Positions 8,676 through 55,661 of a DNA stretch of 64,000 nucleotides are shown here, one piece after another. A program made the position numbers and the translations under genes. Below the pieces are notes generated by a model, which did no database searches, was not told where the DNA came from, and saw only the letters and a list, made by a program, of their open reading frames with translations. Position 1 is the stretch's first letter. Each line of letters opens with the position of its first letter. Source of the stretch: Shewanella sp. OMA3-2 (GTDB lineage Bacteria > Pseudomonadota > Gammaproteobacteria > Enterobacterales > Shewanellaceae); assembly GCF_021513195.1 (NCBI RefSeq), contig NZ_CP090974.1, forward strand, positions 1,066,001 through 1,130,000, read 5' to 3'.

Positions 8676-8859
8676 ACTTTTGTCCAGAAATGAGCTAATT
8701 TTTTTGTGTTTATCGTTTTCCACAGCTATCAATGAAGCTAAATCGAAGAGGCAAAAATTCAGGTGCAGATGAGCCAGCGAGTATCCAAAACAGGGATGTT
8801 TTGGTTAAGCCCACATGGATGTGCTTGCGGCGTCTCGCTGGATCATTTGCACTTGAAGT
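8676..8859. repeat. Structured tandem repeat, unit 1 (184 bp)
   Basis: This unit is repeated at 8874-9055 after a 14-bp spacer. Its second half can fold into three arms. An outer stem pairs CCAGCGAG (8774-8781) with CTCGCTGG (8834-8841). One inner hairpin pairs CCAAAAC (8785-8791) with GTTTTGG (8798-8804). A second inner hairpin centres on CACATGGATGTG (8812-8823). This looks like a palindromic mobile or regulatory element rather than a gene. Confidence 0.8.
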
Positions 8860-8873
8860 TACATTTTAAACCC

Positions 8874-9055
8874 ACTTTGTCCAGAAATGAGTTAACTTTT
8901 TATGTTTATTGTTTGCCACAGCTATCAATAAAGCTAAATCGAAGAGGCAAAGATTCAGGTGCAGATGAGTCGGCGAGTATCCAAAACAGGGATGTTTTGG
9001 TTAAGCCCACATGGATGTGCTTGCGGCGTCTCGCGGGATCATTTGCACTTGAAGT
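8874..9055. repeat. Structured tandem repeat, unit 2 (182 bp)
   Basis: Nearly identical to unit 1 (8676-8859). Both inner hairpins are intact. The outer stem has decayed: GCGAG/CTCGC is kept, but the outermost pairs are lost. Confidence 0.8.
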
Positions 9056-52516: not shown

Positions 52517-52560
52517 ATATTAACTTTTATTAAATGATAGGTGAGTTGATATAGTGTAAA

Positions 52561-52588
52561 AAATGGCGCTCAAATGAGCGCCATTTTT
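52561..52588. terminator. Bidirectional terminator
   Basis: AAATGGCGCTC pairs with GAGCGCCATTT around a short AAAT loop, with flanking A and T runs. It separates the convergent chemoreceptor and S46 peptidase genes. Confidence 0.92.
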
Positions 52589-52610: not shown

Positions 52611-55600
52611 CTACTCTTTGGTTTTATTTTGTTGTACTTCAGATTGTTGCGCTTTATCTAACTGAGCTTTATTGAGTTGCGCTTTATCTAGCTGTGCTTT
52701 ATCTAGCTGCGCTTTATCTAGCTGCGCTTTATCTAGCTGAGCTTTATCGAGCTGCGCTTTATCTAGCAGTGCTTTATCTAGCAGTGCTTTATCTAGCTGT
52801 GCTTTATCGAGCTGTGCTTTATCGAGTTGTGCTTCAGCTTGTTGCACTTCAGTTTGTTGCACTTCAGTTTGTTTCACTTCAGTTTGTTGCACTTCAGTTT
52901 GTTGCACTTCAGCTTGTTTCACTTCAGTTTGTTGCACTTCAGTTTGTTGCACTTCAGTTTGTTGCACTTCAGTTTGTTGCACTTCAGTTTGTTGCACTTC
53001 AGTTTGTTGCACTTCAGTTTGTTGCACTTCAGTTTGTTGCACTTCAGTTTGTTGCACTTCAGTTTGTTGCACTTCAGTTTGTTGCACTTCAGTTTGTTGC
53101 ACTTCAGTTTGTTGCACTTCAGCTTGTTTCACTTCAGTTTGTTCAACTTCAGCTTGTTTGGTTTCTTCCAGTAGGGCTTCTTCTCGTTGAGCTTCTTCTC
53201 GTTGAGCTTCTTCGAGTTGAGCTTTATCGAGTTGAGATTTACCGAGTTGAGACTCTTCTAATTGGGCTTCATCTAGTTGAGTTTCATCTAGTTGAGCTTC
53301 ATCTAGTTGAGCTTTATCGAGTTGAGATTCATCTAGTTGAGTTTCATCTAGTTGAGCTTCATCTAGTTGAGTTTCATCTAGTTGAGTTTCATCTAGTTGA
53401 GTTTCATCGAGTTGAGTTTTATCGAGTTGAGTTTCATCTAGTTGAATGAAAGGTTGGGACTCAGAGTTACGCACTAGCGTTAATTCTTTAATTAAATTAT
53501 CCGCATGATCAACTTGATCCATCATCCACAATATATAGCGAATATCGACATGAACAGCGCGGGTGATCGTTGGGTTAAAGAACCAGTCTTTGGTAATTGC
53601 TTCGTATGTAGAGTCAAAGTTTAATCCTACAAGTTCACCTCTACCATTGAATATCGGTGAGCCTGAGTTACCTCCTGTGGTATCGACGCTGGATAAAAAG
53701 TTAACTGGAACCGAGTTAAAATCACTTTTAGGCTCAATACAGGAAATAAGTCTACACAACCAAGAGCGTGGATCGTTATACACTGACTGAACAGTATGTT
53801 TGCCATAGTCGTTAGTCGCGATAGCAGCTAATAGTTTGGCTGGAGCATTGTACGGTTCTACTCCAATATGTTTAGCGGTAATACCTTGTAAGCGGGTGAA
53901 TGGCTGCTTGTATAAAGCATCATTAGATTGATAACCATCAACCATGCCATATGTTATCCGTAAAGTACGATTTGCATCAGGGTAAACAGGCCAGTTATTG
54001 GCTTTATAGTAGGCAATAATAGCGGCCATATATTCTGGACGAGCTTTAGATAATTTACCTTCAATGACCTTATTTTCTTGTTCCAGTGCCATATTGGTGT
54101 CATGCAACTCAACCGCTAAGCGGATAAATGGGTCACTGCTGGTTTGAAACTCTTCAACTGTTTTATTCATCCAAGCCAAGCGGGTAGCTTGATCAGTTAG
54201 CTCTGTTAACGCATATATGCCATGAACTTTAGCAACAAATCCTTGATGATCAGAACTATTGTTTAATGCGTTATCAAATACTTCAACTTTTAAGGGTTGC
54301 GCCATATAGGCATTTAAGTCCTGTAACCATAAGGTTTTATCCACTTCAATATCAAAGCTGCTATCGATACGTTTCATGTCTGCACGGAACATTTTCATGT
54401 CACGTTTTTGGTAACCAGATTCACGCATAGCATCCGGTTTTTGTTTTTCTTGGGCTAAACGGTACAAACTTTTAGCGGCAAGCAGTAAGGCACTTGATTG
54501 CGCGTTTTCAAAATAATAGTTAATTTGAGCATATTTTTGTTGTTCAGCAAGTAAGACTTCAAGGTCAGCAATTAACAGCGGATTAGCAGATTCATCCTTT
54601 TTTAACCATGCTAAAAAGCCGTCTTCTCTACTTTGTTTGATGCCGACAATATCTGTCGCTTTAAAGCCGTCTAATAAACCATTAAGCTTTTTCATCCGAT
54701 TTGACATCGAAGCCATAGTGCCCGCATATTTAATCGCGATGTTTTTATCTATATTTCCCATTTGGGTGATAGTGTCAATTTGCAACAGATAGCGCGTGGC
54801 ATGGGTTGGATATAACCAATCACTGGCAAACTTAAGTTCACTCGTCAGGTTGTAACGACTGGTCGAGCCTGGATAACCTGCGGCAAATACGCCGTCACCT
54901 GCTTTAACGCCATCAGCATTTACTTTTAAATAGCTTTTAGGGGTAAAAGGAACATTGTCAGCCGAGTAAACGGCTGGTTTACCATTTTTGCCTACATAAG
55001 CGCGTAAAAAGGTAAAGTCAGCAGAATGACGAGGGTATTCGTAATTATCAATATCTCCACCATAACCGCCAATGCTTTCGGGTGGTGCGTAGACTAAGCG
55101 AACGTCGCGAATAATAAGCTGTTTGATGAGGTAATATTCTAGACCGTTGTGATAACTATTTACTGAACAACGGTAGTTATCATCGGCTTCACATATTTTA
55201 ATTAAGCTTTTGCTGTTAGTTTGAATTTGCTCATAACGTATTAATGGCTCATCACTTAAATCAGCTGTAATCAGCTGGGTAACATCTGTGACATTTTCAG
55301 TAATGTATAAACGCTCATTAGGACCAGCAGAAGGCTCGTCGGCCATTGTTTTAGCTAAAAAGCCATCAGTGAGGTAATTATGTTCTTTTTTACTGTTATA
55401 TTGAATGCCGCGATAGGCGCAATGATGATTTGTGACAACTAGGCCTTGGGGAGACACGAAACTGGCGGTACAATAGCCCAAACTGACGACCGCATTCATT
55501 GGATATTGGCCTAGGTCTGCAAGTTGCGTTGCGGGAATGCCAATACCACGTTCTATTAGTTTATCGGCGATAGAGGGCATCTGATAGGGTTGCCATTGCC

Positions 55601-55661
55601 CTTCATCGGCATAGGTGAAACCCGATGACAACACTAAAGCGGCTATCAATATAATACGCAT
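52611..55661 (-). CDS. S46 dipeptidyl-peptidase (DPP11-like) with long pentapeptide-repeat tail
   Basis: A 1016-aa exported serine exopeptidase. Signal peptide cleavage falls near TYADEGQ. The S46 triad is His80 (VTNHHCAYRG), Asp215 (YPRHSADF) and Ser666 (TGGNSGSP). The residue 18 after the nucleophile, which sets P1 specificity in this family, is Ser684 (NFDSTYE). Gly there means DPP7 and Arg or Ser means DPP11, so cleavage after Asp/Glu is predicted. S46 enzymes normally end near residue 720. Here residues 740-1009 are about 54 five-residue repeats (QLDET, QQTEV, QLDKA types), absent from family members I know. It is monocistronic, with a terminator downstream. Confidence 0.9.
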   Translation of the reverse strand: MRIILIAALVLSSGFTYADEGQWQPYQMPSIADKLIERGIGIPATQLADLGQYPMNAVVSLGYCTASFVSPQGLVVTNHHCAYRGIQYNSKKEHNYLTDGFLAKTMADEPSAGPNERLYITENVTDVTQLITADLSDEPLIRYEQIQTNSKSLIKICEADDNYRCSVNSYHNGLEYYLIKQLIIRDVRLVYAPPESIGGYGGDIDNYEYPRHSADFTFLRAYVGKNGKPAVYSADNVPFTPKSYLKVNADGVKAGDGVFAAGYPGSTSRYNLTSELKFASDWLYPTHATRYLLQIDTITQMGNIDKNIAIKYAGTMASMSNRMKKLNGLLDGFKATDIVGIKQSREDGFLAWLKKDESANPLLIADLEVLLAEQQKYAQINYYFENAQSSALLLAAKSLYRLAQEKQKPDAMRESGYQKRDMKMFRADMKRIDSSFDIEVDKTLWLQDLNAYMAQPLKVEVFDNALNNSSDHQGFVAKVHGIYALTELTDQATRLAWMNKTVEEFQTSSDPFIRLAVELHDTNMALEQENKVIEGKLSKARPEYMAAIIAYYKANNWPVYPDANRTLRITYGMVDGYQSNDALYKQPFTRLQGITAKHIGVEPYNAPAKLLAAIATNDYGKHTVQSVYNDPRSWLCRLISCIEPKSDFNSVPVNFLSSVDTTGGNSGSPIFNGRGELVGLNFDSTYEAITKDWFFNPTITRAVHVDIRYILWMMDQVDHADNLIKELTLVRNSESQPFIQLDETQLDKTQLDETQLDETQLDETQLDEAQLDETQLDESQLDKAQLDEAQLDETQLDEAQLEESQLGKSQLDKAQLEEAQREEAQREEALLEETKQAEVEQTEVKQAEVQQTEVQQTEVQQTEVQQTEVQQTEVQQTEVQQTEVQQTEVQQTEVQQTEVQQTEVQQTEVQQTEVKQAEVQQTEVQQTEVKQTEVQQTEVQQAEAQLDKAQLDKAQLDKALLDKALLDKAQLDKAQLDKAQLDKAQLDKAQLDKAQLNKAQLDKAQQSEVQQNKTKE
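52632..53446 (-). repeat. 15-bp tandem repeat array inside the S46 peptidase gene
   Basis: About 54 units of 15 bp, in frame with the peptidase. There are three blocks: LDET/LDEA-type units (about 53146-53446), an almost homogeneous run of QQTEV units (about 52830-53145), and LDKA-type units (about 52640-52829). The middle block is the most uniform at DNA level, which suggests recent expansion by slippage. Confidence 0.95.

Follow-up and report, generated by a model that had tools for sequence, protein, structure and literature searches.

A long acidic repeat tail on an S46 dipeptidyl-peptidase gene of Shewanella and its putative origin beyond an old stop codon

Dipeptidyl-peptidases of the S46 family are split into classes by a single residue at the S1 position. 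According to the accessible portion of a review (PMC8048996), this residue is Gly in DPP7 (Gly666), Arg in DPP11 (Arg673) and Ser in the Shewanella-type DPP11, which prefers Glu; the same text describes overall S46 similarity as misleading and takes the S1 residue as decisive for the classes. Long additions to the C terminus of a protein are described in other systems. De novo C-terminal extensions via stop-codon loss occur in Saccharomyces and Drosophila, as outlined in the consulted part of PMC4494051. There, as would be the case in Shewanella, noncoding 3′ sequence turned coding past the old stop. However, those extensions are short, whereas in Shewanella tandem expansion appears to have produced extensions of hundreds of residues, and to have done so twice on a single bacterial enzyme. 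A second precedent is AlgP of Pseudomonas aeruginosa, with a KPAA tandem-repeat tail that the excerpted text of PMC9239181 gives as predicted to be disordered and as a mutational hot spot in isolates. AlgP and the protein studied here are alike in being bacterial proteins with long low-complexity tandem repeats at the C terminus. AlgP, however, is a strongly basic protein with a putative DNA-binding role, whereas the Shewanella tail is acidic and belongs to an exported peptidase. At the level of titles and abstracts, a literature search found no report of such a tail.

The window, that is the whole stretch of 64,000 nucleotides analysed here, comes from Shewanella sp. OMA3-2. At 52611-55661, on the minus strand, it contains an S46 dipeptidyl-peptidase gene, an open reading frame of 1016 aa with a signal-peptide-like start. 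The signal peptide and catalytic domain cover residues 1-732 (53466..55661, minus strand), as delimited by the PF10459 match, by solved homologues and by orthologues, and this core shares 87% identity with its closest orthologues that lack a tail. PF10459 matches residues 18-728 over profile positions 1-697 of 698 (E 4e-262; 872 bits, for a cut-off of 22). By this whole-profile match the protein is an S46 peptidase, with a catalytic domain as complete as the initial annotation had stated. The core also aligns with solved S46 enzymes in a search of the PDB (7dkb, E 2e-173). We take the catalytic triad to be His, Asp and Ser as for DAP BII, and place it at H80, D215 and S666. These three residues are unchanged in 20 of 20 aligned rows, and H80 and S666 are aligned with Ala in chains 3woo and 3woi of DAP BII.

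Ser684 lies within the motif FDSTY. The FDS triplet is found in all 119 genus orthologues, and Ser684 is aligned with the Gly of DAP BII (FDG, 3woj) and, in chain 4y06, with an Arg (FDR). L002, the genome's second S46 gene, has FDG there, with Gly at S1. Because Ser684 occupies the S1 position, the window enzyme fits the DPP11 type under the rule of the review, and a preference for Glu would be predicted from that residue; by overall similarity the protein is not closer to DPP11 than to DPP7-type enzymes, being nearer to DAP BII (E 1e-173) than to the PDB chains named Asp/Glu-specific (E 3e-87 at best). The NCBIfam Dpp7 model also matches, with a score under its cut-off. Compared with the Shewanella-type DPP11 (S46.002), the complete S46 domain and the Ser at the S1 position are alike, but the window protein carries a 284-residue repeat tail where no more than three residues stand in 105 of the 119 genus orthologues. 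The tail is therefore unusual within the family, as had been claimed from the sequence of the window.

The tail comprises residues 733-1016 (52614..53465, minus strand), has a net charge of -46 and contains neither Cys nor Trp. Past Asn732, the heptapeptide SESQPFI leads into 55 five-residue units followed by KE, so that 275 of the 284 residues lie within units. Tandem Repeats Finder reported three adjoining 15-bp arrays (52651-52834, 52832-53158 and 53163-53445), and counting in codon register gave 55 in-frame 15-bp units (53444-52620, copy number as assembled), 30 of them distinct at the DNA level. From both approaches we delimited, all on the minus strand, a first block of QLDE[TA]-type units (units 1-19, 53160..53444), a second block of QQTEV-type units (units 20-41, 52830..53159) and a third block of QLDKA-type units (units 42-53, 52650..52829). 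The codon-register count places the last two units, QQSEV and QQNKT, and the KE ahead of the stop at 52614..52649. A single 15-mer, CAACAAACTGAAGTG, accounts for 16 of the 55 units, and 13 identical copies follow one another in the second block. The initial annotation had placed about 54 in-frame 15-bp repeats at 52632..53446, in three blocks with an almost uniform central QQTEV block and with Leu at a fixed place. Number, blocks and uniformity agree with our counts. The extent needed correction for the tail proper, which runs from 53465, past Asn732, through 52614. Leu keeps its place only in blocks 1 and 3 (29 of 55 units) and is replaced by Gln in the central block.

We surveyed 1.66 Mb of the genome, about 41% of its 4.09 Mb, by taking 80 stretches of 20 kb in addition to the window. 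Elsewhere in these 1.66 Mb, no array with a period of at most 30 bp and a length of at least 150 bp was detected, and the nearest other array, a further coding one located in a small protein that looks secreted (L232, see below), has a 39-bp unit. A comparable pentapeptide tail recurs at L003, in a second genome assembled as one contig (G035), and on the JGI proteins P0001 and P0002, so the array of the window is no isolated assembly oddity. It is real and beyond chance. On the plus strand, at 52694-53449, the opposite strand of the array forms a Leu/Val-rich open frame of 251 aa, which bears no sign of a gene and is expected because the repeat unit is devoid of stops.

The distribution of tails was then established in 129 Shewanella genomes. 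An orthologue was found in 119 of them and all 119 were collected as loci; among the ten other genomes, nine hold other S46 matches only and one, a half-complete genome, holds none. Tail length was measured beyond one fixed alignment point, and orthologues with at least 50 aa were called tailed. Twelve are tailed (91-433 aa; at one of these loci, L025, the tail runs off the contig), a further two carry 11 aa and 105 lie between -1 and 3 aa. The possibility that homologues all stop near residue 735 is therefore not borne out, 12 of 119 extending further. Tails were assigned to S. frigidimarina, S. inventionis, S. basaltis, S. metallivivens, S. ulleungensis and strain SG41-4, and the tailless sisters of the window species are S. 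subflava, S. aestuarii and S. holmiensis. The second S46 gene served as a control: none of its 127 orthologues (71-100% identity to L002, the S1 residue being inspected in L002 only) has an open frame above 781 aa. In the order as a whole, PF10459 matches were obtained in 104 of 394 genomes, 30 of the 104 being from Shewanella. Among the matches listed from the 394 genomes, no full-length S46 frame beyond Shewanella exceeds 808 aa. Two longer frames of this survey, of 966 and 940 aa, were set aside as weak partial matches and not S46 enzymes.

Trees of the catalytic core were built with 120 rows, and with 34 rows for bootstraps. The pair made of the window and L003 (100/100) adjoins the tailless L004-L006. 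The other ten tailed rows fall in a 12-row clade (100/100) beside the tailless L009-L010; ten of its 12 members keep at least 91 residues, and the remaining two have 11 extra residues. A single clade of tailed rows is rejected (AU p=4e-24, and p 2e-54 after adding the two 11-aa rows), and the fewest-changes count on the 120-row tree is 3. It is thus well supported that tails arose separately twice, in two clades. Among the tailed loci, pentapeptide-type units are found in the window pair only, the rest being mostly Ala/Thr/Val/Glu/Pro-rich with other repeats or scarcely any.

The border between core and tail gives a clue to how the tail of the window began. The codons past Asn732 read CCT TAA TCC in L004, L005 and L006, TCT GAG TCC in the window (L001) and CCC GAG TTT in L003. 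The GAG codon of Glu734 (53460..53462, minus strand) therefore stands at the place of the TAA stop of three sister species. Beyond the present stop, on its 3′ side, lies a symmetric terminator-like hairpin (52559..52588), which has a counterpart 20-24 nt past the stop in L005, L006, L007 and L008. The terminator motif AATGGCGCTC is common to the window, L003 and L005-L008, and is absent past the L004 stop. The distance from the Asn732 codon to AATGGCGCTC is 27 nt in L005, 26 in L006, 33 in L007 and 34 in L008, against 880 in the window and 1358 in L003. Hence a sister stop at the homologous codon, a sense codon here and a homologous downstream landmark were all found. The simplest reading is that the old stop codon was lost and that expansion in the spacer followed, as these alignments suggest. 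Because a change from TAA to GAG takes two base changes, and the DNA just past the junction is only loosely alignable with that of the sisters, a small insertion before the stop may have occurred instead.

Part of the array would be older than the window species. Because QLGKSQLDKAQLEEAQREEA is common to L003 and the window, and QL-type units give way to KQAEV-type ones in each, both block types were probably present in the array before the two lineages split. L003 has no QQTEV units, and has two QLDKA units without a QLDKA block. As to the source of the tail, none was found elsewhere in the genome itself, the best other match having an E value of 0.015. Fusion with a pentapeptide-repeat gene was considered and rejected: no donor was found in the genome, and the two strong matches of the tail search are themselves S46 proteins. 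This protein search, with scoring limited to the 7996 candidates sharing most words, found 21 proteins.

A search with the core returned 6968 proteins, and comparisons were drawn from the best 120 of the 6968, 24 of them long. The compared database proteins are cluster representatives, which is why differing ones are listed, and their repeat lengths can be wrong if they stem from short reads. With this reservation, seven proteins (P0030-P0036) share identical 730-aa cores and carry tails of 210, 218, 219, 230, 234, 238 and 254 aa. Further pairs with identical cores are P0055/P0056 (tails of 214 and 219 aa) and P0079/P0080 (86 and 91 aa), and P0001 and P0002, with two core differences, have tails of 383 and 403 aa. 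The C-terminal end is KEPN or KELN in 14 of the 15 proteins compared, P0055 being different. Between most species, the tails do not align. Two expectations of the initial annotation are answered here. Length does vary between near-identical proteins (P0030-P0036, P0001/P0002), and expansion of the slippage type is supported as a kind of growth, slippage itself being the presumed engine.

Composition was compared over the 36 tails of at least 50 aa, from 12 loci and 24 database proteins, some representing one protein twice and most coming from one clade. Cys and Trp are absent from their 9136 residues, among which are 2 Tyr, 12 Phe and 15 His. Net charge is negative in all 36, from -8 to -94. 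Asp and Glu together make up at most 10% in the other frames of the tail DNA (12 of 12 tails) versus 12-33% in the coding frame. For nine chosen tail pairs, dN/dS ranged from 0.43 to 0.87, as obtained from repeat alignments from which up to 167 out-of-frame bases were excluded; the cores gave 0.02-0.07. Between neighbouring units inside the array, the values were 0.40 in the window and 0.74 in L003. Overall, the data suggest that the tails may be under weak selection for chemistry and frame and under little selection for sequence. Since the window/L003 pair gives the value of 0.87, selection on the tail of the window may be almost nil. In a charge-hydropathy plot, disorder was indicated for only 6 of the 12 tails, L042 and those rich in Val and Ala falling on the ordered side, so that disorder is no common trait of the tails by this measure.

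According to the main rival explanation, the tail is neutral junk: once a stop was lost, slippage ran away at a C terminus that permits it, no benefit resulted, and tails may be shed or remodelled freely. Tails that are unalignable between most species, dN/dS up to 0.87, the two orthologues within the tailed clade with just 11 extra residues and the different end of P0055 are all in line with such a history. It accounts less well for a like chemistry across two separate origins and in 36 of 36 tails, for the KEPN/KELN-type end retained in 14 of 15 proteins, for the at least 91 residues kept by ten of 12 second-clade members and for the second S46 gene, with 0 of 127 orthologues above 781 aa. 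We leave neutrality a real but minor share of the probability.

Our preferred explanation, to which we assign a probability of about 0.55, is that the tail results from stop loss and expansion of a 15-bp unit on an exported DPP11-type S46 enzyme, and now forms a soluble acidic spacer under weak selection. The stop codon would have been lost in the ancestor of the window species and its nearest relative, and the short spacer ahead of the terminator would have turned coding. The 15-bp unit would then have multiplied through slippage or unequal recombination. The resulting acidic low-complexity extension would undergo very fast turnover of length and sequence, with retention of frame and chemistry (net negative, without Cys or Trp, with almost no aromatics). 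On a periplasmic enzyme, it may act as a polyelectrolyte spacer that is soluble and extended, in part helical or disordered; its exit at the very end of the S46 domain would make it tolerable, and selection on it would be weak. The array, its position, the orthologue pattern, the two origins, the length polymorphism and the composition are well supported; we infer stop loss as the first event, slippage as the engine, weak purifying selection, the spacer function and the periplasmic location of the putative translated tail. The locus would exemplify, in nature, the growth of a long protein segment within the spacer past a bacterial stop codon. It offers tailless sisters, a second independent origin in the same gene, a tailless paralogue that can serve as control, and tails that vary in length while the enzyme stays unchanged. 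Because of these built-in comparisons, whether new low-complexity tails do anything can be tested directly in Shewanella.

A bolder reading, to which we attach a low probability, makes the 3′ end of the DPP11-type gene a hot spot where long acidic tails would be born repeatedly and kept hypervariable by selection. Strains sharing an identical enzyme would then differ in how long their Glu-rich polyelectrolyte is, as a contingency-like tuning of how the Glu-specific enzyme encounters peptides in the periplasm. A Glu-rich tail might also regulate or feed the Glu-specific enzyme, either as a pseudo-substrate close to the active site or as a local store of acidic dipeptides released after an endopeptidase nick, its length tuning activity from strain to strain. 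Of the two paralogues, the Ser-type one alone indeed carries tails (12 of 119 versus 0 of 127 above 781 aa), and these are net acidic in 36 of 36 cases and differ in length on identical cores. However, dipeptidyl-peptidases work from the N terminus, as stated in the available part of PMC8048996, and the tail has no free one. Moreover, a five-residue unit does not set Glu at every second place, and the whole-enzyme AlphaFold model, of mean pLDDT 45.9, is unusable on this point. We regard such a role as quite improbable.

The fold of the tail was considered next. Two Pfam families match it over their curated cut-offs, PF13599 (E 4e-19, 68.9 versus 38) and PF00805 (E 5e-14, 51.9 versus 20.2), and by profile match the tail would count as a pentapeptide repeat protein (PRP). 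NCBIfam pentapeptide models stay under cut-off, the HetL model (E 5e-25) reaching 88 of the 260 bits required, and designed and natural PRPs match the tail in the PDB search. Automatic naming files such S46 proteins as pentapeptide-repeat proteins, P0001 and P0002 being named YjbI in the database. These matches, together with Leu-centred runs of 16 and 12 units, would agree with a beta-helix serving as a rigid tower or as a protein-binding surface. Pentapeptide repeat proteins should have at least eight contiguous repeats of their consensus. In its 2019 form, as given in the accessible text of PMC8145042, the full five-position consensus fits 0 of 55 window units, and 27 of 55 when position i-1, mostly Gln, is ignored. 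The centre residue is Leu in 29 units, Gln in 24 and Arg in 2, central Leu or Phe being missing in 26 of 55, and a small residue precedes Leu by two positions in 29 of 55. In the relatives, units with the full consensus number 12 of 85 (L003), 9 of 75 (P0001) and 14 of 79 (P0002), and Pro occupies the centre in 11 of 85, 11 of 75 and 14 of 79, respectively. In addition, a fish protein named involucrin ranks third in the tail search, showing that the words of the tail draw low-complexity matches.

Fold prediction, a check that the initial annotation had proposed, was run with AlphaFold. For the tail alone, as a single sequence and without a PRP control, the model has two long helices and no strand (mean pLDDT 65.6, pTM 0.28), with pLDDT 86-92 in the QLDKA block and below 50 in the middle. 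The model of the whole protein, unusable for placing the tail, shows no tail strands either. An amphipathic helix was rejected, the hydrophobic moment at 100 degrees being near zero (0.02-0.18) in the three blocks. The tail thus resembles pentapeptide repeat proteins (PF00805/PF13599) in its five-residue period, in the small residue two before Leu of blocks 1 and 3 and in its profile matches, but differs from them by Gln centres in 24 of 55 units, by the lack of any full-consensus unit and of predicted strands. With Gln or Arg at the centre of 26 of 55 units, Pro centres in three relatives and helices predicted at low to moderate confidence, the five-residue solenoid suggested by the initial annotation is not supported, and we consider a beta-helix very unlikely.

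The other role put forward at that stage, anchoring of the enzyme to the cell surface or envelope, would suit an exported enzyme with a long charged extension. However, the C-terminal ends of tails inspected by eye have no hydrophobic segment, the tail sequence is not conserved, and an acidic polymer would be unlikely to bind an acidic envelope directly. An anchor is, in our opinion, extremely unlikely.

Some further repeats were noted in the course of this work. In the window itself, a 196-bp unit is present in 1.9 copies (93% match) at 8679-9055, flanked by an ATPase-like ORF and a regulator resembling a sigma54 activator, both named by eye, and looks like a noncoding duplication. At L218:1-3691 (G000:C1:950001-953691), repeats of 354 and 303 bp with 96-99% match are arranged as in a large repeat-domain protein. 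At L237:3366-5528 (G000:C1:1953366-1955528), a unit that looks tRNA-gene-like by eye is tandemly repeated with periods of 82-196 bp. Finally, L232:8046-8717 (G000:C1:1708046-1708717, minus strand) contains a 223-aa ORF with a signal-peptide-like start, small and secreted-looking, made up in part of about 14 copies of the 13-residue unit KLPGVKVLET[HQ]VA with a 39-bp period and 97% match.
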